DNA of 64,000 bases from Gracilimonas sp. (GTDB lineage: Bacteria > Bacteroidota > Rhodothermia > Balneolales > Balneolaceae), in the NCBI RefSeq assembly GCF_017641085.1, contig NZ_JAEPPI010000003.1, positions 62,001 through 126,000 on the forward strand. Direction: 5' to 3'. The notes below the pieces were generated by a model, which saw nothing but the letters and a program-made list of their open reading frames with translations, had not been told where the DNA came from and searched no databases. Made by a program: the position numbers and the translations under genes. Shown piece by piece: positions 21,998-62,664 of this stretch; the stretch's first letter is position 1; each line of letters begins with the position of its first letter.

Positions 21998-22034
21998 ACA
22001 AAAAAAGCTGACGCCAAATCAATGGTCGTCAGCT
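21998..22034 (-). terminator. Bidirectional-type terminator
   Basis: AGCTGACG (22006-22013) pairs with CGTCAGCT (22027-22034). On the minus strand a T run follows the hairpin, so it best serves transcripts from the LuxR regulator gene, although it also stands behind the TM2 gene. Confidence 0.75.
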
Positions 22035-22149
22035 AATATCATCTACAGACGGCTATTACCCCATTTGCACTATAAACATACATTTAAGCAGGAAACCCGT
22101 CAATGGAGGGATTTACGTAATTTTTCTACGTAGAAACACGTACGTGCCG

Positions 22150-22243
22150 AACATTGAACATTGATTAAAGAACATTGAATCTTGAAGTTAGGTGATCAAT
22201 TCTGATTTCAATGTTGAGTGTTCACTATTGACTATTCAATGTA
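22150..22243. repeat. Palindromic spacer element with AACATTGAA words
   Basis: GAACATTGAACATTG at the left faces CAATGTTGAGTGTTC and CTATTCAATGT at the right, giving a long imperfect hairpin in the gap between TM2 and LuxR regulator genes. A similar element made of other words is at 26028-26136. Confidence 0.6.
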
Positions 22244-26030: not shown

Positions 26031-26136
26031 AACATCCAATAAGGAACACCTAACTTTAAACTTTTAAGTTCGGCGTTCTGAAAATCAAACACTCAGTTGA
26101 ATGTTCATCATTCGATGTTCCATGTTGGATGTTCTA
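26028..26136. repeat. Inverted repeat joining two stop codons
   Basis: TAGAACATCCAA (26028-26039) and TTGGATGTTCTA (26125-26136) are exact complements at the ends of the gap between DUF429 and sthA. Each arm contains the stop codon of its gene. Further inner words (GAACACC, AACTTTAAACTTTTAAGTT, GATGTTCC) also pair partly. It probably serves as a two-way terminator and belongs to the group of palindromic spacers seen throughout the window. Confidence 0.75.
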
Positions 26137-40059: not shown

Positions 40060-40146
40060 AAGCAATCAGCCGTCAGCTATCAGCTTTCAGTTTTTATTCG
40101 ATACCGATAAAACTGAAAGCTGAAGTCTGTTAGCTGACAGCAATTA
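40060..40146. repeat. Hairpin spacer R1
   Basis: Lies between P2 and the ATPase. AGCTTTCAGTTTT pairs exactly with AAAACTGAAAGCT around a short loop; outer words CGTCAGCTATCAG and CTGTTAGCTGACAG also pair. Nearly identical over its whole length to R2. Confidence 0.88.
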
Positions 40147-40147
40147 T

Positions 40148-42499
40148 TTATTCACTTCTTAAACTTTCTACCGGTGGTGTAACCGAAGCTTTGATGGACT
40201 GCCAACTGACCGTTAACAGTGCAATCACCAATGCAGACATTCCGGCCAAAAAGAAAATCCGCGGTCCAATTTCAATGCGATAGGCAAAGTCAGCTAGCCA
40301 TCGACTCATAACAAACCAGGCAATAGGGATTGCTATAACAAGTGAAAGTGCAACCATTTTCAGAACTTCCATATTCAACATTAAAATGATTTGTTTAATA
40401 TCGGCTCCCATCACTTTGCGAATGCCAATTTCTTTAGTTCTTTGCCGGGTAGAATAGGTGGTAAGTCCAAATAATCCAAGACAGGCAATAAACAACGCAA
40501 GCAGGGTTAACCCTCCAAATACTTGCCCTAACTTTTGTTCGGCACCGTACTGGCGATCTAAATCGTCACTCAGGAAATAGTACCAGAAATGACTTCCAGG
40601 TGTTACGCTATTCCAAGTTTCTCTGATTTGAGATAGTGTTCGTTCTGAACTGCCTGCGCTCAGTTTAATGACAGCCATATTTATGTGATTGCTGACATGT
40701 ATGACAAGCGGCTCAATAGGGTTGTGAAGGGAAGCGTAATTAAAATCGTTGACCACGCCAATTACGCTTCCCTGTTTAGCAACTTCAAATGAGGAGCCAT
40801 CTTTACTAAAGTCATACCAGGATAATTCTTTGCCAATGGGGTCTTCCCAGCCAAAATAATTTACTGCAGCTTGATTGATTACAAAAGCCCGTGAAGCATC
40901 CGTTGAAACTTCTTCATCAAAACTTCTGCCCAAGGCCATTTCCATTCCAAGAGTTTCCATAAGGCCGGGGTTAACGCGAAGAGTACGTATAGTGGGTAAT
41001 GAGTCGGAAGCCATTCCCGTTGTTCGGATAGGATAAAGTGGCAGGCGCTGTCCCGGTACGTTATATGCTGCTGAAACTTGTTCTATTTCGGGCATCTTTT
41101 CCAGTTCTGCTTTCATAGCTTGATAATTCTCGGCTCCGGTAATGATGATTTTTTCATCGCTGAAACCCAGGTCCTTTTTCTGCATGAAATTCATTTGAGA
41201 ATAGACAGTTAAAGCTGCTACAATCAAAAAGATGGAAATTGCGAATTGAAAGACCACCAAACCTTTGCGAAGGTTTCCGCCTGAAGAAGAAGTCCTGCCC
41301 GTATTTTTTAATACATTAACGGGTTGGAAATTTGAAAGAAAAAATGCAGGATAGCTGCCTGATAATGTGCCAACTAAAAGAGCCAGCCCTACAAAGCCTG
41401 TAATAGCGATCCAGTTTTGCTGGTATGGCATTGACAGTGGGCTTCCTGTAAAGTTGCTGAAAAATGGCAGGCTGATCTCAACCAGAATTAGAGCCAGCGA
41501 CAAGCCCATTAAACTGAGCACAATCGCTTCTCCTAAGAACTGGCCAATCAGCTGACCACGTTGTGCCCCCAGGGTTTTTCGCATGCCCACTTCCTTTTTC
41601 CGCATGGTGGAATAGGCGGTAGATAAATTCATAAAGTTAATGCATGCAAGCACCAAAACAATGATAGCAATGGTTACCAGGATTACCACATAATTGAAAT
41701 TTCCGGTAGCAGCGATGTCTTTTTCAGCCTTTTCAAAATAGATATCATTCAGAGGCTGAAGTTGAGGAGTGAGAAAGTTATCTTCCGTGTACTTGTCGAA
41801 TGTAGATGCTATCGCAGTTTCAACCAGAGAAGGCGATACGTTTTCGGGAAGCAGGATGTAGGTATAGAATCCGGCCCAGGTCCAGTTTTCCATCATGCTG
41901 CCCATAAAAGTTTCAAGCAGTTCGATCGGAACCAAAAACTCGTAGCGGTGGTGAGAGTTTAAAGGCACGTTTTCAAATACGCCTGTTACTTCTAAGTCTC
42001 GTCCCCACATGGTGAGGGTCTTTCCAAGGGGATTCTCGGGGCCAAAATACTTCTCAGCCATAGACTTACTGATTACCATGCGATTTGGAGAAGAAAGGGC
42101 AGTTTCCTTATTTCCCAGAATCAGCGGATGTGTAAATACATCGAAGATGTCAGGGTCGGTAAAGGTGATATTTCTTTCCGCAAACTGTTTGTCCTCAGAA
42201 GTGATATCGGAAGGGGACTTGATCGGCCAGAATCGCACAACATTTGGGGCAATTTCCGGGTAGTCATTTTTGAGAGCAGGGGCTAAAGTAGGTGGAGTTG
42301 CGGCAACATCCCCATTCAATACGCGGTAGATTCGTTCGGAATCAGCGTGGTAATCGTCATAGCTGAGCTCATAGTTTACCCACAGGCCAATGATGATGCA
42401 GGCTGCAAGCCCTACTCCCAAACCCACGGTGTTGATGAAGGTGTATGATTTATTCTTCGCCAAATGGCGAAATGCAATCTTGATGTAATTTCTAATCAT
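40148..42499 (-). CDS. MacB/FtsX-like ABC permease P2
   Basis: This 783-aa permease has TM1 in residues ~20-42, extracytoplasmic MacB-PCD domains on both sides of the middle helices, and the two FtsX loop motifs EVGMRKTLGA and EIGIRKVMGA, ending in PPVESLRSE. It is the last permease before the ATPase at 39354, separated from it by hairpin R1 and from P3 by hairpin R2. It presumably forms a tripartite or lipoprotein-handling exporter with that ATPase. The substrate is unknown; it could equally pair with another permease as a heterodimer. Confidence 0.88.
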   Translation of the reverse strand: MIRNYIKIAFRHLAKNKSYTFINTVGLGVGLAACIIIGLWVNYELSYDDYHADSERIYRVLNGDVAATPPTLAPALKNDYPEIAPNVVRFWPIKSPSDITSEDKQFAERNITFTDPDIFDVFTHPLILGNKETALSSPNRMVISKSMAEKYFGPENPLGKTLTMWGRDLEVTGVFENVPLNSHHRYEFLVPIELLETFMGSMMENWTWAGFYTYILLPENVSPSLVETAIASTFDKYTEDNFLTPQLQPLNDIYFEKAEKDIAATGNFNYVVILVTIAIIVLVLACINFMNLSTAYSTMRKKEVGMRKTLGAQRGQLIGQFLGEAIVLSLMGLSLALILVEISLPFFSNFTGSPLSMPYQQNWIAITGFVGLALLVGTLSGSYPAFFLSNFQPVNVLKNTGRTSSSGGNLRKGLVVFQFAISIFLIVAALTVYSQMNFMQKKDLGFSDEKIIITGAENYQAMKAELEKMPEIEQVSAAYNVPGQRLPLYPIRTTGMASDSLPTIRTLRVNPGLMETLGMEMALGRSFDEEVSTDASRAFVINQAAVNYFGWEDPIGKELSWYDFSKDGSSFEVAKQGSVIGVVNDFNYASLHNPIEPLVIHVSNHINMAVIKLSAGSSERTLSQIRETWNSVTPGSHFWYYFLSDDLDRQYGAEQKLGQVFGGLTLLALFIACLGLFGLTTYSTRQRTKEIGIRKVMGADIKQIILMLNMEVLKMVALSLVIAIPIAWFVMSRWLADFAYRIEIGPRIFFLAGMSALVIALLTVSWQSIKASVTPPVESLRSE

Positions 42500-42513
42500 A
42501 ATCTTTTAGTACT

Positions 42514-42600
42514 AAGCAATCAGCCGTCAGCTATCAGCTTTCAGTTTTTATTCGATACCGGTAAAACTGAAAGCTGAAGTCTGTTAGCTGGCAGCTATTA
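42514..42600. repeat. Hairpin spacer R2
   Basis: Lies between P3 and P2. It differs from R1 by only a few bases over ~85 bp, including one in the loop, although the neighbouring permease genes are clearly diverged. Confidence 0.88.
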
Positions 42601-45066
42601 TTATTCACTTCTTAAACTGTCGGTTGGGTTAATTAAGGTTGCTTTAACGGATTGATAACTTACCGTAAACCACGCAACGGCAAGGGTAAGTAATCCTGAT
42701 AACAGGAAAATGCCAAATCCTAACTCGATTCGGTAGGCGAAATCCTGCAGCCAGGTACTCATGGCATACCAGGCAATCGGGGTCGCAATCACAAAAGCTA
42801 TGGCTACCAATTTGGTAAATTCCTTGTTCACTAAGAAAACGATATTACCGGAAGAGGCTCCTAACACTTTTCGGACTCCAATTTCTTTGGTTCGCCGGAT
42901 GACCATCAGCGAAGCAAGCCCGAACAGGCCAAGACAGGCAATGATGATAGCCAGTACTGATCCGGTGGTTACAATACGACTGAGCCGTCGTTCTTCCCGG
43001 TACTGATCATCCAGTGATTGATCGACGAAGGTATAATCGAACGGAACGCCCGGTGCTACCTGTGCCCATACTTCTCTCAGCTGACTTACTGTTTGAGATA
43101 AATTTCCCGTGGATAAGTTGAATGAGTATCGCGGGTCAAAAGAGTTTGAAATACCGAGGTCGGAAATTCCGCTAAACAGAATATCCGGGTTCATTACTAT
43201 AGCAAGCGGCTCTACCGGGGTATGCAACGACTCATAATGGAAATTTTCCACAACGCCGATCACCTCATGCTGATCGAATTCAGGTCCGGGAAGGCGTTGG
43301 CCGATGGGATTTTCCCAACCGAAATATTCAACGAGGGCTTCATTCACGATCATAGCCTGACGGGCATCAGAGGGATTTTCTTCAGAGAAATTACGCCCTT
43401 CCGTTACTTTAATTCCGAGAGTGGGGATGAAATCAGCATCCACAAAATTGCCATGAAAGTTTTTGGGTTGATCCTGATTATCTCTGAACCCCATCTGAAA
43501 CCAGCCCCCGGTTTGCACAGGAGTGAAGGAAGAAGTCGTTATTGAAGTAATTTCAGAGGAAGCTTTCAATTCATTGATAAGTATTTGCTTTCTCCGAATG
43601 CTTTGTTCAAAAATATCAGCCGGTGAGCTTTGAGGGGTATTGCTGATGCCGGATTCCAGCACCAAAACCTGGTCTTTCTGGTAACCGAGGTTTTTATTCT
43701 GAACATAATTCAGCTGCTGATGGATAGTAATGGTTCCTATAATCAGGGCAATAGAAAGTGAGAATTGAAAGACGACCATCACTTTTTGGAATCCCCCCTT
43801 TTCAGCAGACAGATTTAGACGACCTTTCAGCACTTCAATCGGGCGAAAACCGGAAAGGACAAGAGCAGGGTAAATGCCTGCTACCAGACTCACAGCTAAA
43901 GCAGTAAGCAGTAACACTCCCAGTGTTCCTGCTCCATAAGAAATAGTAAGCTCGGTTCCGGAAAGATCATTGAAAAAGGGAAGAAGAAGTTCAGCAAAGG
44001 TGATCCCAATCAAAAAGGCAATCAGCGTCATCATCAAGGCTTCACCCCAAAACTGATACATCAGATGTTGCCGGATGGCTCCGATGGTTTTCCGGATTCC
44101 AACTTCCTTAGCTCTTGAGGTAGATTTACTGATCGAAAGGGTCATGAAATTAACGCAGGCTATCAGCAGAATCAGAAAGGCGATGGCTGCAAGGATGTAG
44201 GAATATACCGGATCGCTGACGCTGGCTTGGGCTGAAGGAAATTCGGTGTTAAGGTGAATGTCGATCAAAAGCTGGAGGCCTACTTTATAATCCTGATTGG
44301 TGAAGAAATCCTCCCCAAATACGCCTTTCATCATGGAATCAAACTTTTCATTCAGTTCGTCCGGGTTTGTGCCTTCCTGCAATGTCAGATAGGTGCTGCC
44401 AAAAATGTTGAACCAGCTGTTTCGGCCACGTTCGCTAATCAGGGTCTCCAGGTTTTGGTCAGGCATCAGGATTCGGTAATCCAGACTGGAATTGGCCGGG
44501 GGATTTTCAACCACACCGGTTATGGTGAACTGTTTGTACTCATCGGTCAGCCTTATGGACAGGGTTTTTTGAAGTGGGTCTTGGTTGCCGAAAAAACGGT
44601 TGGCAGTTGCCTCAGAAATCACAATGGAAGACGGATTCATAAATAAATTGTCAGGATCGCCCTGCAGGATTTCAAAGTCAAAAATTTGAAAGAAATCTTC
44701 ATTCACTACCAAGATGTTTTCATCAAAGGGAGCCTGAGCATCGGGGGTTTTTACCAGATTGCTGAAGCTGAACATGTAGGTCAGGTGCTCAACTTCCGGA
44801 ATGTTATCTCTGAGGGTTGGGCCCAGGATTACAGGCGTGGCTGTATTCAGTAATTCCCTGCCTTCAGGTGTGGTCTCGTTTACCCAAGCCCGGTAAGTAC
44901 GGTCTGCTTTAGAATGAAATTCATCATAGCTCCACTCATTTTGAACATACAGGGCAATAAGAATGCAGCACGCCACACCCACAGCCAGTCCAAATATATT
45001 GATGGATGAATACACCTTGTTCTTGAACAAGTTCCGAAATGCGATTTTAAAGTAATTTTTCAGCAT
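42601..45066 (-). CDS. MacB/FtsX-like ABC permease P3
   Basis: This 821-aa permease is the longest of the series. TM1 is in residues ~20-43 (INIFGLAVGVACCILIALYV), the FtsX motifs are EVGIRKTIGA and EIGVRKVLGA, and the end reads NPTDSLRSE. The extracytoplasmic regions are the most variable part compared with P2 and P4. It lies between hairpins R2 and R3 in the P5-P2 run. As with its neighbours no substrate can be assigned. Confidence 0.88.
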   Translation of the reverse strand: MLKNYFKIAFRNLFKNKVYSSINIFGLAVGVACCILIALYVQNEWSYDEFHSKADRTYRAWVNETTPEGRELLNTATPVILGPTLRDNIPEVEHLTYMFSFSNLVKTPDAQAPFDENILVVNEDFFQIFDFEILQGDPDNLFMNPSSIVISEATANRFFGNQDPLQKTLSIRLTDEYKQFTITGVVENPPANSSLDYRILMPDQNLETLISERGRNSWFNIFGSTYLTLQEGTNPDELNEKFDSMMKGVFGEDFFTNQDYKVGLQLLIDIHLNTEFPSAQASVSDPVYSYILAAIAFLILLIACVNFMTLSISKSTSRAKEVGIRKTIGAIRQHLMYQFWGEALMMTLIAFLIGITFAELLLPFFNDLSGTELTISYGAGTLGVLLLTALAVSLVAGIYPALVLSGFRPIEVLKGRLNLSAEKGGFQKVMVVFQFSLSIALIIGTITIHQQLNYVQNKNLGYQKDQVLVLESGISNTPQSSPADIFEQSIRRKQILINELKASSEITSITTSSFTPVQTGGWFQMGFRDNQDQPKNFHGNFVDADFIPTLGIKVTEGRNFSEENPSDARQAMIVNEALVEYFGWENPIGQRLPGPEFDQHEVIGVVENFHYESLHTPVEPLAIVMNPDILFSGISDLGISNSFDPRYSFNLSTGNLSQTVSQLREVWAQVAPGVPFDYTFVDQSLDDQYREERRLSRIVTTGSVLAIIIACLGLFGLASLMVIRRTKEIGVRKVLGASSGNIVFLVNKEFTKLVAIAFVIATPIAWYAMSTWLQDFAYRIELGFGIFLLSGLLTLAVAWFTVSYQSVKATLINPTDSLRSE

Positions 45067-45079
45067 AGTATATAATTTT

Positions 45080-45164
45080 GAGCTTTCAGCCGTCAGCTAT
45101 CAGCCTACAGTTTTAACGAGATCGGTAAACTGTAAGCTGAAGCCTGATAGCTGACAGCTATTAT
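45080..45164. repeat. Hairpin spacer R3
   Basis: Lies between P4 and P3. The inner stem is CAGCCTACAGTTT facing AAACTGTAAGCTG. Relative to R1 a T-A pair has become A-T on both arms, a compensatory change, with one C-A mismatch elsewhere. Confidence 0.85.
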
Positions 45165-47618
45165 TTATTCATTTCTTAAACTGTTGACGGGATTGGTTAA
45201 GGCTGCTTTTACAGATTGCCAGCTTACGGTTGCAATGGCAATGCCGAGCGTGATTAATCCCGATAAAAGGAAAACAGACATTCCTAAATCAGTTCGGTAG
45301 GTAAACTGCTGCAGCCATTGTTGCATAACCAGGTATGCAATAGGTATGGAAATCATGAAACTGACTAAAATCAGTGCCATAAATTCTTTGGACATAAGGC
45401 GAAGGATAGATGCAATATCCGCCCCCAATACTTTCCGGATTCCAATTTCTTTGGCTCTTTTCTCGGCACTGAATGCAGAAAGTCCGAACAGCCCCAGGCA
45501 GGCTATTAAAATGGCCAGCACTGAGAAGGTACTCATCAGGTTTTGCACCCTGTTTTCAGCACGGTACATCCGGTCGAACTGCTGATCCAGGAATGCATAA
45601 TTGAACGGTTGTTCAGGAGCTCGGGCGGTCCATTCTGCTTCCAGAACGGCCAGCACTTCACTGATATTTGCATCAGCAAAACGGAAGGCCACATTGCCCG
45701 ATGAACGCTGGTTAAACAAACCCAATGGGGACACGTTTTCGCGCAACGACTCAAAATTGAAGTCCCTGACTACGCCCACAATTTCATAAGACAGCGTTTT
45801 GGATTGATCGATTGATCCATCTTCGTGGTTCATTGCAAAGGTTGAAATACTCTTGCCAACCGGGTCTTGGAGGTCTAATCGCTGAACAGCTGTTTCATTG
45901 AGGATTACGGCTTGCTTGTCCATTGCCCGATTCTCAGAAAAGTTTCTTCCCTCCACGATCTCCATTTTCAGCGTTGGGATGTAGTTTTCATCCACCTCCC
46001 ATGTTTGCATGCTCACGGTGTTATTCTGTGTGGGTGATTTTCCCTCCGGCCAATAAGCCAGGTCATTCAAGGAATATCCATCAACGGGAAAGAAACTGGA
46101 GATGGTGGCGGATTTAATGAATGAGTTTTTCAACACATCGTCTCTAAAAGAATCGACTCCGTTGCTGCTTCCGATAGCATAGGCGTCTTCAACGATTACT
46201 ACCCGGTCTTTCTCAAATCCAATGTTTCTATTCTGAATAAATTGCAGCTGGTCGTTGATGACAAGAAGTCCGGCAATAATTACGATGGAAATGGAAAACT
46301 GAAATACCACCAATCCCTTTCTGAACAAACCATGGCCTTTGCGCTCCAGATGGGTGTCTTTAAGTACTTTTACGGGTTGAAATGAAGACAGCATCGCCGC
46401 AGGATATGCCCCTGCAAGCAAGCCGGTGATGATGACAATACCCAGCATGCCCAGGCTTAAGGGAAGGTTGGTGAAATACTGCGAACTTATGGTTCTCCCG
46501 GCTATATCGCTGAAATAGGGCAGGGTAAGTTCAACAAAAAACAGGGCGACAATTAAAGCCAGAAAACTGAGCAGAAGGGATTCCATCAAAAATTGGCCGG
46601 CCAATGTGGAACGGTCAGATCCCAGGCTTTTTCGAACACCGACTTCTTTTGCTCGTTTTGCTGATCGCGCAGTAGAAAGGTTCATGAAGTTGATGCAGGC
46701 CAGCAGCAGGATAAAAACGGCCAATCCGGAAAAAATATATACATAAGTAATGCTTCCGTTTGCCTTAAACTCTCCGGTGAGGCTGGAATGAAGGTGAATG
46801 TCCTCCAAAGCCTGTAATCTGTAATCGGCACGATTTCCGGCTTCTTCAAATTCTTTCATTGTAATTCCCATAAACTGAAGAAGCTGGGGCTCTATGTATG
46901 TTTTCTTGATGTACTCGAAGTTCTGTTCAAAAGCTTCTGGGGCGGTATTTTCGCTAAGCAGCAGGTAGGTTCTGAAGTTATTACTCAGCCACACATTGTT
47001 GTTGGCTTCATCGATTGTTGCCATCGAAATCAAAAAGTTGAAATGAAAGTGAGAGGTATTCGGCATGGTTTCGTACACGCCGGTAATTTCCATATCAAAA
47101 TCATCCTGTATGGTAAGGGTCTCGCCCACCACATCGGCGCGGCCAAAATACTTCCGGGCCATTTCTTCACTAATGGCAACCGTTTGTGGCTGTGTCAAAG
47201 CATGATCCGGTTTCCCATAGAGAAAGGGGATGGTGAATACATCAAAAACGGAGGAATCGGCAAACACAAAGCCACTTTCACGATAGTTTTTTCCTTCTTT
47301 TTTGATCAGGTAAGAACCACGCGGACGGAAACGGGTCATAGCCTCAACTTCAGGATAAAGCTCCTTAAGGGTAGGTCCCATTGGTGCAGAGGTAGAGGCG
47401 AGTTCGATAAAGTTGCCACCGAAATCGATGTGGGAGGTTACCCGGTAAATACGATCTGAGTTTGAATGATGTTTATCGTAAGAAAGCTCATGCGTTACGT
47501 ACAGCAAGATCACAATACAGGTCGCCAAGCCCACAGCCAATCCAATGATATTGACCGAGGAATAGACTTTATTTTTGAACAAGTTCCGGAATGCGATTTT
47601 GAAGTAGTTTTTTAGCAT
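45165..47618 (-). CDS. MacB/FtsX-like ABC permease P4
   Basis: This 817-aa permease has TM1 in residues ~20-43 (VNIIGLAVGLATCIVILLYV), FtsX motifs EVGVRKSLGS and EIGIRKVLGA, and ends NPVNSLRNE. Its start region (MLKNYFKIAFRNLFKNKVYSS) is almost identical to that of P3, while the extracytoplasmic domains differ strongly. This suggests a tandem duplication followed by divergence of the substrate- or partner-facing parts. It stands between hairpins R3 and R4. Confidence 0.88.
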   Translation of the reverse strand: MLKNYFKIAFRNLFKNKVYSSVNIIGLAVGLATCIVILLYVTHELSYDKHHSNSDRIYRVTSHIDFGGNFIELASTSAPMGPTLKELYPEVEAMTRFRPRGSYLIKKEGKNYRESGFVFADSSVFDVFTIPFLYGKPDHALTQPQTVAISEEMARKYFGRADVVGETLTIQDDFDMEITGVYETMPNTSHFHFNFLISMATIDEANNNVWLSNNFRTYLLLSENTAPEAFEQNFEYIKKTYIEPQLLQFMGITMKEFEEAGNRADYRLQALEDIHLHSSLTGEFKANGSITYVYIFSGLAVFILLLACINFMNLSTARSAKRAKEVGVRKSLGSDRSTLAGQFLMESLLLSFLALIVALFFVELTLPYFSDIAGRTISSQYFTNLPLSLGMLGIVIITGLLAGAYPAAMLSSFQPVKVLKDTHLERKGHGLFRKGLVVFQFSISIVIIAGLLVINDQLQFIQNRNIGFEKDRVVIVEDAYAIGSSNGVDSFRDDVLKNSFIKSATISSFFPVDGYSLNDLAYWPEGKSPTQNNTVSMQTWEVDENYIPTLKMEIVEGRNFSENRAMDKQAVILNETAVQRLDLQDPVGKSISTFAMNHEDGSIDQSKTLSYEIVGVVRDFNFESLRENVSPLGLFNQRSSGNVAFRFADANISEVLAVLEAEWTARAPEQPFNYAFLDQQFDRMYRAENRVQNLMSTFSVLAILIACLGLFGLSAFSAEKRAKEIGIRKVLGADIASILRLMSKEFMALILVSFMISIPIAYLVMQQWLQQFTYRTDLGMSVFLLSGLITLGIAIATVSWQSVKAALTNPVNSLRNE

Positions 47619-47631
47619 GGTATTTAATTTT

Positions 47632-47722
47632 GAGCTTTCAGCCGTCAGCCGTCAGCTATCAGCTTTAAGTTTTATCGAGATTGATAAACTGTAAGCTGAT
47701 GTCTGATAGCTGACAGCTATTT
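47632..47722. repeat. Hairpin spacer R4
   Basis: Lies between P5 and P4. It has a duplicated CAGCCGT word at the left arm and two mismatches in the inner stem, so it is the least perfect hairpin of the family. Confidence 0.8.
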
Positions 47723-50107: not shown

Positions 50108-50123
50108 GGTATAAAGTTTCTAT

Positions 50124-50180
50124 GTGTGAACGTATTTAAGTGTTTATGCACGTTCGCACCTAAACACTTAAACACGTCTA
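50124..50180. repeat. Palindromic spacer with TTAAGTGTTTA words
   Basis: TTTAAGTGTTTA and TAAACACTTAAA face each other around a GC-rich loop, with partly matching outer words (GTGTGAACGT and ACGTTCGCAC inside the loop). It lies in the predicted leader of P5. Confidence 0.7.
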
Positions 50181-50201
50181 CAACTAATTATACACTGGGT
50201 A

Positions 50202-50307
50202 ATCAACTATCATACCAAACCGGGAAAAGATCTTTAAAACAGCGTTAAGGGCATTTTTGAGGGTAATACCTGTTCACTTTCAAACACCGGGTGTGCGATT
50301 ATGGACA
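50202..50307 (-). promoter_or_regulatory. Sigma-54-like promoter with tandem UAS, site 2
   Basis: On the minus strand TGGTATGATAGTTGAT (50202-50217) is a -24/-12-like element. After 53 bp come dyads TGTTCACTTTCAAACA (50271) and TGTGCGATTATGGACA (50292), 21 bp apart, on the plus strand. The arrangement is identical in spacing to sites 1 and 3. It would drive P5 and the genes after it. Confidence 0.78.
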
Positions 50308-50313
50308 GTGAGG

Positions 50314-50395
50314 TTAGCCGGCAGCTATCAGACTTCAGCTTTCAGTTTATTCTCTATGGATTTAAACTGAAAGCTGATAGCTGTCTGCTGAGAGC
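50314..50395. repeat. Hairpin spacer R5
   Basis: Lies after the P6 stop. CAGCTTTCAGTTT faces AAACTGAAAGCTG, with further pairing of CAGCTATCAG and CTGATAGCTG-like words. It is followed on the left by the dyads of site 2. Confidence 0.85.
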
Positions 50396-52747: not shown

Positions 52748-52807
52748 GGCCAGACCCGATTTCTTGATTACGGATGTTACACGGTAAAAATCAGAAGTCG
52801 TTACATG

Positions 52808-52864
52808 TAAGTGAGAACTTTCTTCAAATAATTATGCTCCTGCAGAGGAGTTATTTCTCACTTA
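52808..52864. promoter_or_regulatory. Inverted repeat upstream of P6 and the amidase
   Basis: TAAGTGAGAA and TTCTCACTTA are exact complements enclosing a smaller CTCC/GGAG hairpin, in the gap between the divergent P6 and amidase genes. It may be an operator or a leader structure. Confidence 0.5.
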
Positions 52865-53036
52865 AGGTTAAAAAGTGAGTTGGTTGACTCTTATAAAAAT
52901 GGAGTAAAAGTTTGGTGATATATGTATGGTTTAGCAGGTTCTTGAATTGTAAAATTATATAGCGGAAGCAATTAAGTGAATGTAGAAATTCAATTCTTGA
53001 GTAATTTCTATTTCACAACTCAAGCCGTGGATAAAT

Positions 53037-54608
53037 TTGAAGACAGCATCAATTCATTGGGTTATAATTTTCGTTACTGCAGTTTTAACTTCCTGTCAGC
53101 CCATTCTATATAAAAATCAGGAAGGTAAAAGCTCATCATCAGTCTCCAAAGAATTCAACGTTGATGAAGCAACCATTAAGAATGTTCATCAGGCTTTCAG
53201 AGAAAATACCCTTACTGCCGAAAGGCTGGTTCAAATATATCTGGAACGCATACAAAAATACGATCAGCCGTTCGGGTTAAATGCCATCACCTCCATTAAC
53301 CAGAGGGCTCTTCAGGATGCTCGTGTTTTGGATGAGGAGTTTAGAAATACCGGGGAGCTGCGACCATTGCATGGTATTCCCGTTATTGTGAAGGAGAATA
53401 TCAGCACGGCAGGACTTCAGACCACAGCCGGTTCGCTTGCAATGCAGGGATTTATGCCTAAAGAGGATGCCTACATTATTAAGAAATTAAAGGAGGCTGG
53501 AGCCATCGTTTTGGCTAAGTCTAATATGGCAGAATGGGGTATCAGCGCCAATATTACAGTAAGTTCGGTAGCTGGTGAAACGCTGAATCCCTACAATCTT
53601 GCATATACAACAGCGGGCTCAAGCGGAGGCCCAGCCGCAGCAATTGCTGCCAATTTTGGGATCATTGGAATAGGAACAGATACGGGTGGTTCTATCCGGG
53701 GTCCGGCTTCCCATAATGCTGTTGTAGGTGTAAGACCATCAATGGCGTTGACGAGCAGAAAGGGAATTATACCGCTTAATTTAAGGAATGATGTACCCGG
53801 TCCTATGACCAGAACAGCAGAAGACGCAGCTCGGGTACTTGAGGTAATAAATGGATATGATCCGGAAGACCCGCTAACCGAATATGGAAAAGAAAAATTG
53901 CCGGATAGTTATACTGAGTTTTTACAAAAAGATGCTTTAAAAGGAATTCGAATAGGTGTTTTTAGAAAGCTCAGTAATTATGCCAGTCCTCAGATAGATA
54001 CTTTATTTCAACAAGCTATTTATGAGCTGGAGAAACTGGGTGCAATTATTATTGATCCTTTCGAGGTCCCCGGCTTTGATTCTCTGCGCCACAATCAATG
54101 GTGTGCGGTATTTCAGGAAGATTTGAATGAGTTTTTGGGTAGCCTTGGTGATGAAGTTCCGGTTAATAACTTACAAGAGGTTATAGCTTCGGGTAAATAT
54201 TCGAAATACATAGAGAATGATCTGATTAATTATCAAAAATACATGAAAGTACAAGGAGAGACGGTTTGTGGCGGTCCTTTTTCGGATACTAAAAGAATTG
54301 CATTCAGGAATGCTATTGAACAGGCTATGAACCACCAACGGGTAGATGTATTAATCTACCCATCCTGGAATCGAGCGCCCATTAAAGCGGGAACGGTATA
54401 TGCTATTACGGGAGATAATAACCACATTATAGCTCCACATACGGGGCAACCGGCAGTGACGGTTCCTATGGGATTTCTGCCTGAGAACCTGCCGGCAGGG
54501 ATACAGTTTTTAGGTCGTATTTTTGACGACCATAAAATTCTGAGTTACGCATACGCCTATGAGAGAGCAACTCAGCATCGAAGAAAGCCCAAAATGTTCT
54601 CGAAGTAA
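53037..54608 (+). CDS. Amidase-signature lipoprotein
   Basis: This 523-aa protein begins with a lipoprotein signal (IIFVTAVLTSCQP). It carries the amidase signature: catalytic Lys in IPVIVKENIS, the cis-Ser in TTAGSSGGPAAA and the nucleophile Ser in GTDTGGSIRGPAS. Exported amidases of this type hydrolyse amides or peptide-like compounds of unknown identity, and some resemble 6-aminohexanoate hydrolases. No ATG is available; TTG at 53037 is the only start that leaves a complete signal peptide. It converges with the GHL10 glycosidase gene. Confidence 0.88.
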   Translation: MKTASIHWVIIFVTAVLTSCQPILYKNQEGKSSSSVSKEFNVDEATIKNVHQAFRENTLTAERLVQIYLERIQKYDQPFGLNAITSINQRALQDARVLDEEFRNTGELRPLHGIPVIVKENISTAGLQTTAGSLAMQGFMPKEDAYIIKKLKEAGAIVLAKSNMAEWGISANITVSSVAGETLNPYNLAYTTAGSSGGPAAAIAANFGIIGIGTDTGGSIRGPASHNAVVGVRPSMALTSRKGIIPLNLRNDVPGPMTRTAEDAARVLEVINGYDPEDPLTEYGKEKLPDSYTEFLQKDALKGIRIGVFRKLSNYASPQIDTLFQQAIYELEKLGAIIIDPFEVPGFDSLRHNQWCAVFQEDLNEFLGSLGDEVPVNNLQEVIASGKYSKYIENDLINYQKYMKVQGETVCGGPFSDTKRIAFRNAIEQAMNHQRVDVLIYPSWNRAPIKAGTVYAITGDNNHIIAPHTGQPAVTVPMGFLPENLPAGIQFLGRIFDDHKILSYAYAYERATQHRRKPKMFSK

Positions 54609-54621
54609 ATAAAGCTTATTG

Positions 54622-56169
54622 TTAATCGAGATGTTCAAAATTTTGAATGAAGGCCGAACTTTCAAATCCTAACCGGTCGATATAGGTAATATGAAGTTCC
54701 TTCAGCAGCGAAACCCTTCCTTTTCGAAGAGGTGAACTGGCAGGTGCATGGTTTATCCTGTAATAAGGGATAACGGCAGACTCCCGGGTTTTTGGGATGA
54801 TAATTGTTTGCCAGGTGTTATCATATCGAGCATAAACAATCCATTTTGAAACACGGCTCATATCTTCCTCCAATACAAAAGAAAGGGCCCCCTTTTCACC
54901 GGTAAAAGAAATGTCAGGTGCTTTTAGCGGACGATGGTTGATCCAGTTCATGGAAGGAATCAGGGCTTCCCGTTTATAAGGTTTATCAAGCAGGGCTTGT
55001 TGGAGCGAGTCATTTTCAACTATTCCCGTCATACTCCAGTGGATGGTTCCGGGTGCTTCCGGCAGCATGCCGCGTGTTATCATAATTTGATTAATGACCT
55101 CGTCCACTTGTTGCTCTCCTTCATAGCGGGAAATACTCATGCCCGGCCAGATATGCCGGTCTGTAAAATTCTGCTCTTCCCACCATCCCAAAAGAACCGG
55201 AAAGCTCTGTGGTACTTGGTTTATGGGCCAATACAGTTGGGGTGAGAAGTAATCAACCCAGCCTTTTTTGAGCCACTTTTTGGCATCAGCGTAAAGCACC
55301 TCATATTGATCCATTCCTGCAATGGATGGCGGACTTCCCGGTCGCCACACACCAAAGGGACTTAGCCCAAATTTCACATAAGGCTTTTCCTTTTTTATGG
55401 ATCTATATACCCGTTGTATGAATGTGTCTACGGCTTTTCTTCGCCAGTCACTTCGGGAAAGCTTTCCGCCGGAGTTTACATAAGCGTCCCAGCTTTCATC
55501 GTCCGGAAAGTCTTCCCCAAAATTATAAGATGGATAGGGATAGAAGTAGTCATCAAAATGAACGCCGTCAATATCGTATCGCTTTACGATGTCCATAACT
55601 ACGGCGTGGGCATGATCCTGGGTTTCCTGCAGGCTGGGATCGAACCACCAGTACCCGCTTTTTAATCCTACTACCAACTCATCTTTTGTGTTCACGACGG
55701 AGTGCTCCGAAACGGGGCCGCCTCTCACATGGTGTGCCCGGTAAGGATTAAGCCAAACATGAAGCTCAAGTCCTCTTTTATGGGCTTCTTCAATCCAGAA
55801 ACTCAGGGGATCATAATAGGGAGTTGGTGGCACGCCTTGCTGGCCGGTCAGGTAATACGACCAGGGTTCCAGCTCGCTTTCATATAAAGCATCAGATTGG
55901 GGGCGAACCTGGAAAATAACGGCATTAAAGTTTGTGGCCTGCAAAAGATCGAGCAGTTTTATAGCCTCTTCTTTCTGCTGCTCCACGGGGATACCCGGTT
56001 CACTGGGCCAGTTGATGTTGGCAACCGTAGCAACCCAAGCGGCCCTGAATTCACGCTGAATTTCAGGATGGGAATCAGCCGGTTTTTTCGGGGAAAGTTT
56101 GAGGTACTGACAACTGGAAAGCATCAAAAGTAAACACAAATAAAGACAGCACGAGATTTTCTTCGGCAT
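54622..56169 (-). CDS. GHL10-family glycosidase lipoprotein
   Basis: This 515-aa protein starts with a lipoprotein signal (CLYLCLLLMLSSCQ). The body matches the glycosyl-hydrolase-like 10 (DUF187/YngK) family: FRAAWVATVANINWPS, NAVIFQVRPQSDALY, LELHVWLNPYRAHH, DGVHFDDYFYPYP and GLSPFGVWR. Related enzymes act on peptidoglycan-derived or other surface polysaccharides. It follows P7 after a hairpin spacer and may share its transcript, linking a wall- or glycan-acting enzyme with the permease regulon. Confidence 0.88.
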   Translation of the reverse strand: MPKKISCCLYLCLLLMLSSCQYLKLSPKKPADSHPEIQREFRAAWVATVANINWPSEPGIPVEQQKEEAIKLLDLLQATNFNAVIFQVRPQSDALYESELEPWSYYLTGQQGVPPTPYYDPLSFWIEEAHKRGLELHVWLNPYRAHHVRGGPVSEHSVVNTKDELVVGLKSGYWWFDPSLQETQDHAHAVVMDIVKRYDIDGVHFDDYFYPYPSYNFGEDFPDDESWDAYVNSGGKLSRSDWRRKAVDTFIQRVYRSIKKEKPYVKFGLSPFGVWRPGSPPSIAGMDQYEVLYADAKKWLKKGWVDYFSPQLYWPINQVPQSFPVLLGWWEEQNFTDRHIWPGMSISRYEGEQQVDEVINQIMITRGMLPEAPGTIHWSMTGIVENDSLQQALLDKPYKREALIPSMNWINHRPLKAPDISFTGEKGALSFVLEEDMSRVSKWIVYARYDNTWQTIIIPKTRESAVIPYYRINHAPASSPLRKGRVSLLKELHITYIDRLGFESSAFIQNFEHLD

Positions 56170-56251
56170 AAAAACAGAATATGGAACTCTTTCAGGGGCA
56201 GACCGAAGGTAGCAACAATTGGGGAAGAAGGAAACGGATGGAAAGTGGCGA

Positions 56252-56323
56252 GGTTTTAGGTGTTAGGTTTTAGTGGTTCCCAGATGGGCACACTAAAACC
56301 TAACACCTTGCACCTAAAACCTA
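56252..56323. repeat. Palindromic spacer with GTTTTAGGTG words, copy 1
   Basis: GGTTTTAGGTG and TGTTAGGTTTTAGTG on the left face CACTAAAACCTAACACC and CACCTAAAACC on the right. It lies between P7 and the glycosidase gene and is close in sequence to 58900-58974. Confidence 0.82.
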
Positions 56324-58705
56324 TCATTCACTCCTCAAACTATCCACGGGATTAGCCACGGCGGCTTTGATGGATTGCCAGCTTACGGTCAGCAAGGCGA
56401 TGATTAAAGCGGCACCGCCGGCCAGGGCAAAAATACCGGGTCCAATTTCGATACGGTAGGCGAAGTCCGCCAGCCATTGGTTCATGGCGTACCAGGCGAT
56501 AGGGATAGCTATGGCAAACCCTGTGAGTACAAGCAGGATAAAATCTTTGGAAAGCAGCGCTACGATGTTGGAAACGGTAGCTCCCAGAACTTTGCGGATG
56601 CCGATTTCTTTGGTGCGGCGTTCGGCTGAGAAGGCGGCTAAACCAAATAATCCTAAGCAGGCTATGAAAATGGCAATAGCAGCAAATGCTGTAAACGCTC
56701 TACTCAGTTTTTGATCAGTAGCATATTGTTCTGCAAATTTATCATCAAGAAAATGGTAGGTGAGAGGATCTTCAGGCCAAAGCTTAGTCCATTCTTCCTG
56801 AAGGTATGAGATCAATGACTGCGCTTGTTCAGGATGAAATTTTATGGCAAGCATGTTATACGAATTATATTTGTTTGGATCGGTTGGCTTCATTCGGATA
56901 TAAACAGGTCCAATATTGCTATGAAGTGACTTGAAGTGAAAGTCTTTTACAACCCCTACTATTGTTGAACTATCTGAAAGCATTCTGTTTACAGCACTAT
57001 CCGGATTGCCCCATCCTAATTTTTTCACCATAGCTTCATTTATAACACGAGCTTTGTTACGATCCGTAATGCGGTTCTCGTCAAAAAACCTGCCAGCAGC
57101 CATTTCAAGGTTTAGGACATCATCGTAGTCAGCATCGGTTCTGAGACTATGTGCATAGAATTGATTATCCGGATTATCAGGGTCAAAAGCCTGGCCGGTT
57201 CGCATCCCAAACCTGCTGGGGATATCTGTTGTGGCAGAAGCGTGAATGACTGCAGAATGATTTAGCGCGATTTCTTTAAATGTTTCGATATTACCACGAA
57301 TTTGATGTGCAGGAATATACATCACCTGATCATCCTCAAACCCAAGGTCTTTTTCGAGTACGAATTGCAGCTGATTGAAAGCAATGAGAGTACAGATGAT
57401 CAATGCTGTAGAAACCACAAATTGCAGTGTGACTAACATTCTTCTGAAACCACCACCTTTAGAGCTTTGATGAGAAGCCGCTTTAAGAACAATTGATGGT
57501 TTAAATCGCGACAAAAAGAAAGCCGGATAGCTTCCAGAAAGTACTCCGACTCCTATAGAAGTCAAAAACAGGAGAGACAATAAAGAACCGGTTTCCTTGA
57601 AGGTCATTAACAACTCTTTCTCAACAAAATTGTTGAAGAAGGGCAGGGCAAGTTCGGCTATAAATAACCCCAAAATGAAAGCAAATACAGCAACTAATAC
57701 AGCTTCTCCAATAAACTGCATTATAAGTTGTGTTTTTCCGGCTCCTACTACTTTACGAACTCCGACCTCTCTGGAACGTTGCATAGCACGGGCTGTAGAT
57801 AAGTTCATGTAATTTATGCATGCCAGTATCAGAATAAAAAGGGCAATGGCTGAAAAAATATAGATATACTTTCTATCACCTTTAAAACCACTGGCTAGTG
57901 AATGCTCCGATAGGTAAAGATCAGAAATAGGAATGGAGAAAAAAGAGGTCGTTGATTCTTCTCCCATATTTTTTATCACCAATTCTGAAACTTTTGGAGA
58001 AATGTCTGACCAAGTTGAACCTTCCTGAAGTTGAACATAGGTATTGAACATACTTGACCCCCAAGAATCACGATGTGTTTTGGAGTAGGACGTATTATTA
58101 ATGGAAGCAACTATATCAAAATTGAGATAGGAATTCTGCTGCATATTTTCAGCAACTCCTGTAACTATAAATTCCCCTTCCTCATATCGATTAATTAAGA
58201 GTGTTCTACCAATGGGGTTTTCGTCTCCAAAATATTTCTCAGCTATTTCTTCAGTAATAACAACTGATTTTGGATCAGAAAGAACGGTCTCTGGCTGGCC
58301 AATTTTTAAAGGGAAGGAAAACATCCTGAAGAAGCTTTCTGAAGCATGAATAATGCGATCTTCTTCAGAGAAATCTTCACCATTTACGCTTACATCTCCT
58401 GATCCTTTATATAAAGTAATGAGGAAATCATCTACTTCAGGAATTACATTTTTCATTGCCGGGCCAACAGGATATTGGGTACTTAATCCTTTATTAGTGT
58501 TACTACCGTAAGAACTTTCTCTTCCCACGAAGTATATCTGCTCACTGTTCTCATGGAATTGGTCGTAGCTGAGTTCATCTGTTACAAAGAGAGAAATAAG
58601 GATGAGGCAACACAAACCAATTGCAAGGCCTAAAACATTAATCAGAGAGTAGGACTTATTATTCCGAAAATTTCGCCAGGCAATTTTGATATAGTTCTTA
58701 AGCAT
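56324..58705 (-). CDS. MacB/FtsX-like ABC permease P7
   Basis: This ~793-aa permease has TM1 in residues ~20-43, FtsX motifs EVGVRKVVGA and EIGIRKVLGA and ends NPVDSLRSE. The start MLKNYIKIAWRN (58705) is chosen because the other permeases begin there; in-frame ATG and TTG codons lie 6 and 9 bp upstream. The promoter with tandem dyads, site 3, lies upstream. It may be transcribed with the glycosidase gene. Confidence 0.88.
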   Translation of the reverse strand: MLKNYIKIAWRNFRNNKSYSLINVLGLAIGLCCLILISLFVTDELSYDQFHENSEQIYFVGRESSYGSNTNKGLSTQYPVGPAMKNVIPEVDDFLITLYKGSGDVSVNGEDFSEEDRIIHASESFFRMFSFPLKIGQPETVLSDPKSVVITEEIAEKYFGDENPIGRTLLINRYEEGEFIVTGVAENMQQNSYLNFDIVASINNTSYSKTHRDSWGSSMFNTYVQLQEGSTWSDISPKVSELVIKNMGEESTTSFFSIPISDLYLSEHSLASGFKGDRKYIYIFSAIALFILILACINYMNLSTARAMQRSREVGVRKVVGAGKTQLIMQFIGEAVLVAVFAFILGLFIAELALPFFNNFVEKELLMTFKETGSLLSLLFLTSIGVGVLSGSYPAFFLSRFKPSIVLKAASHQSSKGGGFRRMLVTLQFVVSTALIICTLIAFNQLQFVLEKDLGFEDDQVMYIPAHQIRGNIETFKEIALNHSAVIHASATTDIPSRFGMRTGQAFDPDNPDNQFYAHSLRTDADYDDVLNLEMAAGRFFDENRITDRNKARVINEAMVKKLGWGNPDSAVNRMLSDSSTIVGVVKDFHFKSLHSNIGPVYIRMKPTDPNKYNSYNMLAIKFHPEQAQSLISYLQEEWTKLWPEDPLTYHFLDDKFAEQYATDQKLSRAFTAFAAIAIFIACLGLFGLAAFSAERRTKEIGIRKVLGATVSNIVALLSKDFILLVLTGFAIAIPIAWYAMNQWLADFAYRIEIGPGIFALAGGAALIIALLTVSWQSIKAAVANPVDSLRSE

Positions 58706-58786
58706 CGTCATCAATTTTATTTAAAGAGCAAAAGTAAACCACAACAGAACACTTATAGCCGATGTATGCTTACTCACAAAACTTAA

Positions 58787-58892
58787 TTCAACAATCGTAC
58801 CAAGTGAAGCAAAAGCCAGTGTTTAGCCTTCCAACCCCTTTACCCCGTGGTAATCTGTTCGATATGTTACACCCGATGTTCGATAATGGACA
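58787..58892 (-). promoter_or_regulatory. Sigma-54-like promoter with tandem UAS, site 3
   Basis: On the minus strand TGGTACGATTGTTGAA (58787-58802) is the best -24/-12 match of the three. After 53 bp come dyads TGTTCGATATGTTACA (58856) and TGTTCGATAATGGACA (58877), 21 bp apart, on the plus strand. It would drive P7. Confidence 0.8.
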
Positions 58893-58899
58893 GTGGGGG

Positions 58900-58974
58900 T
58901 AGGGTTTTAGGTGTTAGGTTTTAGTGTGTCCATCCAGGCACCACTAAAACCTAACACCTTGCACCTAAAACCTA
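58900..58974. repeat. Palindromic spacer with GTTTTAGGTG words, copy 2
   Basis: Nearly identical to 56252-56323 in its arms, with a different loop. It directly follows the P8 stop and precedes the dyads of site 3. Confidence 0.82.
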
Positions 58975-61356
58975 TCACTCACTTCTCAAACTATCCACAG
59001 GATTAGCCACGGCGGCTTTGATAGATTGCCAGCTAACAGTCAAAATCGCGATAATCATCGCAATCAGTCCTACGGTTATAAAAACAGCAACATTCATATC
59101 AATACGATAGGCAAAGTTGGTAAGCCACTGATCCATTACGTACCAGGCGATGGGCGTTCCCACTACAAAACCGATAGCCACTAATTTGAGGAAGTCGGTT
59201 GAAAGCAAAGCCACTATTTTTGAGACGGAAGCTCCCAACACTTTTCGAATTCCAATTTCTTTTGCCCGGCGTTCAATCAGGAAGGATGAAAGCCCTACAA
59301 GGCCAAGACAGGCGATGAAAATAGCCAGCCCGGAAAATGCCAGTAACAGGTTTCGGGTCTGCAGTTCAGATTGGTAGAGAGCATTCAGCTGTTGATCTAA
59401 AAACTCGAATTCAAAAGGCCGGTGTGGGGCAACATCCTGCCACATATTCTCCAGAGATGCTATCGTGCCCTGGATGTTCCCCGGTTCAACTTTCACTAAC
59501 AGGTAGTTATACATCTGCTCATGAATGAATAACGCCAGGGGCTCTACATTTTCTCTGAGAGACTGGTAGTTAAAGTCTGCCATCACGCCAACCACCTCGC
59601 CTTCTCTTCCTCCCAGTACATTGAAAGGCTTGCCAATGGCTTCCTGTGGCGACCAGCCATGAGCCTGCGCTAACTGCTCGTTGATGAGATACACATAACC
59701 CTGTTCTCTGGTATAGGAAGGACTATCCGGAAAAGAAGTGCCGGCGATGACCTCAATATCTAATGTTTGAACCAAATCGGCATCAGCTGCACCGGCTGCA
59801 GTTCCTATCGGTTCCATCGTGGTGTTGTGAACCGATCCATACCCGCCAAAAACTTTACCGGGAATATTTGACATGTAGGTTGCTCCTTTAACACCCGGCT
59901 GACGGAGAACCTCACTTTTCAGCAGGTCCTGTTTTTGAGCAAGCTCATTATCTCTTGCAGGTAACACAATAACTTCATCATCATCAAAACCAAGGTCTGC
60001 AGTTAATATGAAGTTTGTTTGTTGATAGATGATGACGGTACATAGAATGAGGAAAGTGGATATGGCGAATTGTGAGATCACCAGCCCTTTGCGAAGGGTG
60101 CCGTCTGACCCGGTGGAGCCAAGCAGTCCCTTGAGTACACGCACCGGCTGGTAAGATGAAAGCAGAAAAGCCGGGTAGCTTCCGGCGAGGGCAGCGGTGA
60201 TGATGGTCACACCGGCTAAAAGCATCCATGCGGAAGGATCGGTAAAAAGGTTAAAGCCGATGTCTTTGCCCATCAGTTGGAAAAAGGGTTCTTTGAAAAA
60301 CTCCACCAGAATCAGTGCTAATACAACTGATATCAGCGTAATCAATATAGATTCCCCATAAAACTGCTTTACCAGTTGCGATTTTACCGCACCGAGTGCC
60401 TTTCGGATACCCACTTCAGCTCCACGCCTTGAAGAACGGGCGGTTGAGAGGTTGACGTAATTTATAGTAGCGATAAGGAGTACCATCAGAGCAAGGAAAA
60501 TAAATCCAATCACATTTTGCATACTGCCCATGGGGGCAATTTCGAAATCGAAGTTTGAGTTCAGGTACAATTCTGTGACGGGGGTAAAGATCAGTTGATC
60601 AACACGGTCCTGAATCTGATTATCCCTTATGAAGGCATTTGCTGTCTGTCTTAATGATTCGGTGGAGGAGCTGCTATTCAGTAGCAGATAAGTGAAAAAA
60701 TTAGCGGCCCTGATCTGAGAATCATCCAGCTGAGACCAACTGCTCATGGTATGCAGCGAGCCCAGATAATTGAATGTAAAGTGGGAGTTTGCAGGAACGT
60801 TTTCAATGACGCCGGTCACTTCAAAATCATAATTGGTATTGAAAATCCGGGCATTAACAGTTTCACCAAGTACATCAACAGACCCAAATAATTTCAGGGC
60901 TGTAGATTTGGGTAAAACCAATGATCTTGGGTTTTTGAGTGCTGTTTCGGGGTTTCCGGCAATAAAATCAAAACTGAAAATCTGGAAAAAGCTGGAATCG
61001 GCATATAGGAAGCTGTCTTCCTGAAATTTATTCTCACCGGTACTGATGATGGCCGGGCTGTAACGGGTAGGTTCATAAAGCCGAACCCATCGTTCAATCT
61101 CTGGTGAGATTTGATTCAGCGTTGGAGCCACCATGGAAGGCGTAACGGCAATGTTATCGCCACCGCTTTCCATACTGATCCGAACAATTCTGTCCGCTTT
61201 TTTATGGAATTGGTCATAACTGAGTTCATGCCTCACATATATGAGGATTAGCAGACAGCATGCAATGCCTATTGCCAGCCCCGAAATATTGATGAAAGAA
61301 TAGCCTTTATGCTTAGAGATATTTCTAAAGGCAATTTTAAAATAATTCTTCAGCAT
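58975..61356 (-). CDS. MacB/FtsX-like ABC permease P8
   Basis: This 793-aa permease has TM1 in residues ~20-43 (INISGLAIGIACCLLILIYV), FtsX motifs EVGIRKALGA and EIGIRKVLGA and ends NPVDSLRSE. It follows the second ATPase and the HlyD-like adaptor on the same strand, so adaptor, ATPase and P8 make a complete MacAB-like set apart from an outer-membrane channel, which may lie beyond the window. Hairpin R6 separates it from the ATPase. Confidence 0.9.
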   Translation of the reverse strand: MLKNYFKIAFRNISKHKGYSFINISGLAIGIACCLLILIYVRHELSYDQFHKKADRIVRISMESGGDNIAVTPSMVAPTLNQISPEIERWVRLYEPTRYSPAIISTGENKFQEDSFLYADSSFFQIFSFDFIAGNPETALKNPRSLVLPKSTALKLFGSVDVLGETVNARIFNTNYDFEVTGVIENVPANSHFTFNYLGSLHTMSSWSQLDDSQIRAANFFTYLLLNSSSSTESLRQTANAFIRDNQIQDRVDQLIFTPVTELYLNSNFDFEIAPMGSMQNVIGFIFLALMVLLIATINYVNLSTARSSRRGAEVGIRKALGAVKSQLVKQFYGESILITLISVVLALILVEFFKEPFFQLMGKDIGFNLFTDPSAWMLLAGVTIITAALAGSYPAFLLSSYQPVRVLKGLLGSTGSDGTLRKGLVISQFAISTFLILCTVIIYQQTNFILTADLGFDDDEVIVLPARDNELAQKQDLLKSEVLRQPGVKGATYMSNIPGKVFGGYGSVHNTTMEPIGTAAGAADADLVQTLDIEVIAGTSFPDSPSYTREQGYVYLINEQLAQAHGWSPQEAIGKPFNVLGGREGEVVGVMADFNYQSLRENVEPLALFIHEQMYNYLLVKVEPGNIQGTIASLENMWQDVAPHRPFEFEFLDQQLNALYQSELQTRNLLLAFSGLAIFIACLGLVGLSSFLIERRAKEIGIRKVLGASVSKIVALLSTDFLKLVAIGFVVGTPIAWYVMDQWLTNFAYRIDMNVAVFITVGLIAMIIAILTVSWQSIKAAVANPVDSLRSE

Positions 61357-61408
61357 AGTTCTCCTTTGTTATTGATTGTGGGCAAGCTTCCTTACATACT
61401 TGCAGGCC

Positions 61409-61470
61409 TCTGCTTTCAGTTTAAATCCGGAAGGGTAAACTGAAAGCTGACAGCTGTCGGCTGAAAACTA
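61409..61470. repeat. Hairpin spacer R6
   Basis: Lies between the second ATPase and P8. GCTTTCAGTTTA pairs with TAAACTGAAAGC around a short GC-rich loop; CAGCTGTCGGCTG follows. Confidence 0.85.
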
Positions 61471-62160: not shown

Positions 62161-62229
62161 GGTAGTAAGGTTTAGGTTGTCGGTCTTTTTTAAAATTTTT
62201 TGTAAAGAATTTGTTTTTGAGTGCTCTTA

Positions 62230-62660
62230 CTGTGTAAGCTGTCAGCCAACAGCAGTCAGCTTACAGGTATTCAATTCAAGGATTACTCATGAGAGATTTT
62301 AAAACATTATCAGTTTGGCAAAAAAGTCATGTATTGGCTTTATCTATCTATAACTCGACGGCATCTTTTCCTAAAGAAGAATTGTACGGGCTTATAAGCC
62401 AAATGAGGAGATCAGCTTCGTCTATCCCAACTAATTTAGCTGAAGGATGTGGAAGAAATACCCAATCTCAGCTGGCCCACTTCATAAATATTGCTTTGGG
62501 ATCAGCATCAGAGCTTCAATATCAACTGATGCTGGCCAAAGATCTGGGCTTTGTTACCGATCATATTTTCAAAGAACAATCAAATAAAGTAACAGAGGTA
62601 AAGCGAATGCTGACCTCATTTCATCAAAAAGTGCTGGCTGATAGCTGATGTCTGTACGCT
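62230..62660. mobile_element. Hairpin-framed S23 element (candidate)
   Basis: The S23 gene is framed by R-family words. Upstream, TGTAAGCTG and CAGCTTACA form a hairpin. In addition AGCTGTCAGCCA (62237-62248) pairs with TGGCTGATAGCT (62635-62646) through one G-U pair, so the ends can close over the whole gene. The right arm includes the last codons and stop of the S23 gene. The same words make up spacers R1-R6. Confidence 0.55.
62289..62648 (+). CDS. Four-helix-bundle S23/IVP family protein
   Basis: This 119-aa protein belongs to the 23S-rRNA-intervening-sequence (S23, IVP) family: an N-terminal LSVWQKSHVLALSIY, the central RRSASSIPTNLAEGCGR motif and SASELQYQLMLAKDLGF. The family forms four-helix bundles related to Avd of diversity-generating retroelements and is often encoded inside hairpin inserts of 23S rRNA; the function is not established, nucleic-acid binding being likely. 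Here it is chromosomal, on the strand opposite to the adaptor-ATPase operon it interrupts, and framed by the hairpin words found between the permeases. No 23S rRNA gene is near. Confidence 0.88.
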   Translation: MRDFKTLSVWQKSHVLALSIYNSTASFPKEELYGLISQMRRSASSIPTNLAEGCGRNTQSQLAHFINIALGSASELQYQLMLAKDLGFVTDHIFKEQSNKVTEVKRMLTSFHQKVLADS

Positions 62661-62664
62661 AAAA

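Follow-up and report, generated by a model that had tools for sequence, protein, structure and literature searches.

Heptamer-armed hairpins between diverged permease genes of Gracilimonas as probable solo members of an IVS-like family of fast-turnover intergenic cassettes

The window, meaning the whole 64,000-nucleotide stretch of DNA analysed here, corresponds to positions 62001-126000 of contig C3 in a Gracilimonas genome of 3.49 Mb (G000). Its minus strand carries, between 39354 and 63921, an operon made up of an HlyD-type gene, two ABC ATPases and seven MacB/FtsX permeases, of which P6 and P5 are separated by two unrelated genes; the closest named relatives found for this operon are Balneolaceae MAGs. 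The six hairpins (R1-R6) that a preliminary description had placed in gaps of the operon are all where it put them, on the minus strand (Table 1). The gaps concerned measure around 100 nt each, apart from those of R5 (288 nt) and R6 (114 nt). Two further gaps of the same operon contain hairpins of identical architecture built from another heptamer, and the gap between the HlyD and ATPase genes is occupied by a larger cassette, R7, whose 23S_rRNA_IVP (S23) gene encodes a product matching PDB entries 2gsc and 2rld. A search against Rfam gave no match at E<=1 across window positions 33-64 kb. Elsewhere in the window, solo palindromes based on the heptamer GAACATT, which also flanks an IVP locus (L039), are present at 21975-22243 and 26031-26133.

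Table 1. Hairpins, cassette and associated features of the permease operon (window coordinates)
Position	Strand	Feature	Match
40062..40143	-	R1: solo heptamer hairpin, AGCTGAY flavour, gap between permease P1 and ATPase gene	
42516..42597	-	R2: solo hairpin, 96% identical to R1	
45081..45160	-	R3: solo hairpin, T-A to A-T change in stem	
47633..47719	-	R4: solo hairpin, outer arm longer by one heptamer	
50135..50172	.	Second hairpin of the R5 gap, other flavour (TAAGTGTTTA / TAAACACTTA), conserved in sister genome G057	
50315..50395	-	R5: solo hairpin, shared with G057 at this site, where its loop is inverted	
56251..56323	-	Solo hairpin, AGGTTTT/AGGTGTT flavour, downstream of permease P6	
58903..58974	-	Solo hairpin, AGGTTTT/AGGTGTT flavour, downstream of P7; loop approximately opposite to that of the 56251 hairpin	
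61411..61466	-	R6: decayed solo hairpin, ATPase/P7 gap	
62201..62230	+	Promoter-like module TGTAAAGAAT-N12-GCTCTTAC upstream of the R7 IVP gene	
62230..62664	+	R7 cassette: S23/IVP gene with AGCTGAY heptamers to either side, HlyD/ATPase gap	
62289..62648	+	23S_rRNA_IVP (S23, four-helix bundle) gene, 119 aa, antisense to operon	PF05635, E=4.9e-39

The near-identity of R1 and R2 beside diverged permeases, to which the preliminary description had drawn attention, was borne out by measurement: 88 of 92 positions are identical (96%), as against 32% at the four-fold degenerate sites of the adjoining genes. R3 and R4 share 75 of 86 positions and the other pairs of hairpins are 70-84% identical, while the permeases whose 3' ends adjoin the hairpins share 34-40% of their amino acids and are saturated at four-fold sites (27-39% identical, comparing only sites where the first two codon bases match). 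The right-hand neighbours of R1 and R2 are also different, an ATPase gene in the first case and a permease in the second. A genome-wide count with CAGCTATCAGCTTTCAG, allowing up to 2 mismatches, returned 21 matches in 3.49 Mb and none for the reversed control; a family found only in this operon and as diverged as neighbouring third codon positions is thus not what the genome contains. The earlier statement that the hairpins are better conserved than the genes holds between copies within one genome, but between sister species the reverse is true, since there the genes stay and most hairpins of the R1-R6 type are replaced. Similarly, the paired T-A to A-T exchange described in R3 is real, but the selection for pairing that had been read from it is only weakly supported, the covariation being thin: a change on both sides preserves pairing in 2 of 26 pairs, and in some copies pairing is lost at several positions of the outer stem.

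What the preliminary description missed is that the family is defined by a heptamer architecture, not by any one sequence, and that it is linked to S23/IVP genes. The unit is a palindrome, each arm of which consists of a heptamer repeated in a short tandem array, and the heptamer differs from one flavour to another: AATTTAA, AGGTGTT, AACGTGTT, GAACATT, GTGAAAAG and AGCTGAY were all seen. Such palindromes of period 7, in their various flavours, occupy many gaps between genes across the genome. In a survey of gaps covering 464 kb sampled from the genome, supplemented by searches, strong inverted repeats were present in 48 of 215 gaps, a figure that includes ordinary terminators, and among these gaps a period of 7 (with 14) stands out over all other periods. 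Array length varies at orthologous positions, CAGCTAT being present three times in G000 and eight times in the sister genome G057. In another genome, G005, the HlyD/ATPase gap orthologous to that of R7 (L143) contains more than 20 perfect tandem copies of TGAACAT. A separate intergenic repeat, the perfect palindrome GTAGAGACACAAAATCTTGTGTCTCTAC, was encountered at L088:2072-2119 and L094:15466-15534 and resembles GTAG-tagged REPs.

The genome of G000 contains 14 23S_rRNA_IVP genes (PF05635). Locus-specific inverted arms, mostly heptamer arrays, surround 11 of the 14, compared to 0.6% of control spans; the corresponding figures are 25 of 28 (1.5% of control spans) for the family and 10 of 19 (4.0%) elsewhere in the phylum. 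Controls were spans within the same loci, mismatched pairs of loci having been dropped because shared modules and orthologous loci had contaminated them. R7 itself is among the three G000 loci at which the inverted-repeat score does not exceed that of the control. Period 7 is enriched in the flanks of IVP genes, and the heptamer flavours seen in IVP arms are met again in solo hairpins of G000. The flavour of operon hairpins agrees with that of the resident IVP cassette, a comparison based on six or seven operons and having one exception, the mixed L044. At L038 (region of G000:C1:1389268) an IVP gene lies between two direct copies, each of around 85 bp, of one hairpin, rather than between inverted arms.

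Comparison with the sister genome G057, whose operon orthologues are around 98% identical in protein to those of G000, reveals turnover of these sequences. The genes can be aligned right up to the stop and start codons at the gap edges, whereas no alignment is possible across the gaps at R7, R6, R4 and R3; next to these, the final 100 nt of the left gene are identical at 89-100 positions and the first 100 nt of the right gene at 96-99. Where G000 has AGCTGAY hairpins, the G057 gaps contain AACGTGT hairpins that resemble one another. The R5 gap is common to both genomes, its central loop exactly inverted. In G040 the permease junctions are empty and only 11 nt long, in the relative L042 they lack these hairpins, and in L044 and G003 two neighbouring gaps each harbour near-identical hairpins of a type of their own.

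Of the IVP-bearing cassettes, five of the 12 IVP loci in G057 are conserved in G000, with IVP proteins 98-99% identical. At two others (L028/L166 and L036/L173) flanks of around 95% identity give way to around 60% exactly across the cassette; replacement of the IVP by an unrelated gene was considered there and rejected, the genes being homologous at around 60% nucleotide identity. The R7 IVP gene is replaced in G057 by a different IVP cassette, while at L168/L010 an IVP cassette of GTGAAAAG flavour in G057 alternates with a solo AGCTGAY hairpin in G000 between flanks that are 94-97% identical. At one further site G057 has an IVP gene where G000 does not, and two loci are without a match in the G000 sequence compared. 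Small heptamer cassettes are thus exchanged as whole blocks between closely related bacteria, the genes staying put. This turnover is patchy, since some solo hairpins are unchanged between the two genomes, R5 is kept and those five IVP cassettes are conserved. The earlier suggestion of copying or mobility finds support in such presence, absence and replacement between species.

Upstream of several IVP genes, and also of RAYT, integrase, ssb, comM and recQ genes, lies a module of the form TGTAAGGAAT-N12-GCTCTTAC; the names of the downstream genes come mostly from reading their translations, the integrase having been confirmed by Pfam. The module, ending in GCTCTTAC or GCTCTAAC, is found in the window ahead of the R7 gene and at around 24 sites genome-wide (L048-L073), positioned 14-60 nt upstream of IVP, RAYT, integrase, ssb, comM-like, recQ and GIY-YIG genes. 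One copy (L066, G000:C2:605556) comes after an ECF-sigma-like gene. That the module might be an insertion end was rejected, as it is promoter-like and precedes unrelated genes. It looks like an ECF-sigma-type promoter of a competence and recombination regulon, and the sharing of it suggests that IVP genes may be expressed together with DNA-processing functions.

We consider it probable that R1-R6 are solo, gene-less members of a family of fast-turnover intergenic cassettes that resemble the intervening sequences (IVS) of ribosomal RNA. The larger members, with an S23/23S_rRNA_IVP gene between their arms, have the layout of ORF-bearing IVS, and hint at a mobile element family outside rRNA. Short IVS without an ORF are known, for example in Salmonella, and it is to these that the solo hairpins would correspond. 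Cassettes would enter, or displace one another, at fixed intergenic sites beside gene ends, and a resident cassette could spread by copying to adjacent gaps of its operon, so that diverged genes come to have near-identical hairpins next to them. Insertion may be driven by the IVP protein or by another factor that the promoter module controls; arm length would change through slippage of heptamers, and the RNA hairpins may be processed by RNase III as those of IVS are. Once alternative cassettes exist they could be spread by homologous recombination in the flanks, that is by allelic replacement, and natural transformation could likewise spread them. Copying by the cell's own reverse transcriptase from RNA is disfavoured, no match to PF00078 having been found in the genome.

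The strongest competitor is ectopic gene conversion, whereby a hairpin of single origin, whether formed in place or acquired, spread across the operon through recombination between the near-identical permease ends (TTTAAGAAGTGAATAA ... ATGCTGAAAAA). The permease ends flanking the gaps are indeed nearly identical among paralogues, and copies are most alike within one operon. However, the R6 and R7 sites have genes other than permeases to the left or right, the right-hand genes of R1 and R2 differ as described, the same hairpin types are found at unrelated sites and around IVP genes, and the origin of a new flavour is left unexplained. As a full account conversion is therefore possible but doubtful; it could well supply the local copying within the cassette explanation, to which conversion and targeted insertion can both contribute.

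Hairpins maintained by selection on the operon, as terminators, attenuators or stems for mRNA processing, would account for strong stems in the transcribed gaps of a single operon, and it is in keeping with such a role that the 16 gaps in which a strong inverted repeat coincides with period 7 include only one of the sample's 48 divergent gaps. Yet the hairpins are absent from close relatives with the same operon and replaced wholesale in the sister species, they lack a T-tract and an Rfam match, and covariation is weak, so that this explanation appears quite unlikely, although a by-product effect on the mRNA is possible. Intrinsic terminators in particular were rejected: there is no terminator-like match at R4, R5, R6 or the AGG hairpins, and no T-run follows the stems of R1-R3. 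Less likely still is that these are REP/BIME elements spread by RAYT transposases. In favour of it, the elements are palindromic, short and intergenic, the genome has RAYT (Y1_Tnp) genes and the promoter-like module is common to RAYT and IVP genes. The palindromes beside the RAYT genes are, however, of other kinds (e.g. GAAGGGGTTCAGCCCTTC) and not built of these heptamers, and arms made of heptamer arrays in many flavours are unlike the one REP sequence per RAYT. Finally, the permeases are paralogues, but retention from tandem duplication of a permease gene with its gap, already judged inadequate in the preliminary description, can be dismissed given the contrast between R1/R2 identity and four-fold sites, and given that the sister species have matching genes but different orthologous gaps.

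The reading of R1-R6 as IVS-like cassettes gains from comparison with known systems. In the 23S rRNA IVS of Coxiella burnetii, a terminal inverted repeat of 28 bp with variable GACAGAT heptamers encloses an S23p gene, and RNase III excises the element (PMC4990558). The present elements resemble IVS of Coxiella and Leptospira in looping an S23p/IVP gene within a long terminal inverted repeat, that of Coxiella in their tandem heptamers, the number of which varies (in Coxiella they lie at one end), and IVS generally in being sporadically present and occupying the place of what is otherwise merely a small loop or gap (PMC4990558). Unlike IVS, the elements in the window are intergenic within a protein operon, not inside a 23S rRNA helix, come in dozens of flavours per genome, have their own promoter-like module and often carry the IVP gene antisense to the operon. 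We call them IVS-like, rather than filing them as rRNA IVS, because gene, layout and heptamers are shared but the sites are intergenic. The literature searched yielded no link between intergenic heptamers and IVP genes.

TAACTGA and other heptamer repeats are known from Beggiatoaceae, Cyanobacteria and Bacteroidetes, and they too are short, intergenic, tandem, patchily distributed and variable in copy number; unlike the present cassettes they are described as direct repeats near start codons, with neither a hairpin cassette nor an IVP link reported in the text consulted (PMC4679880). MacGregor's TAACTGA repeats may be a direct-repeat relative (PMC4679880). REPINs and BIMEs with their RAYTs likewise combine non-autonomous intergenic palindromes with a gene-bearing form, but the present elements show no RAYT linkage and no conserved head tetranucleotide, and have heptamer-array arms (PMC3116915, PMC2817692). 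The Avd proteins of diversity-generating retroelements (DGRs) belong to a related four-helix-bundle fold family, the bAvd match (E=1.2e-6) being below the curated cut-off; unlike DGR and retron retroelements, however, these cassettes are in a genome in which no reverse transcriptase was found.

More tentatively, IVP genes and heptamer hairpins might form one mobile system, in which the IVP protein, co-expressed with competence and recombination genes through the shared promoter-like module, would recognise the hairpins and drive the exchange of whole cassettes at fixed intergenic sites; the rRNA IVS would then be the special case of cassettes that landed in 23S rRNA hairpins. The cassettes also offer a possible source for heptamer repeats of obscure origin, and a warning that conserved-looking hairpins between the genes of an operon can be products of turnover instead of regulatory elements. 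The origin and function of ribosomal IVS, and of the widespread four-helix-bundle S23/IVP proteins, are long-standing questions (PMC4990558); with dozens of intergenic relatives per genome and exchange visible between sister species, both become testable.
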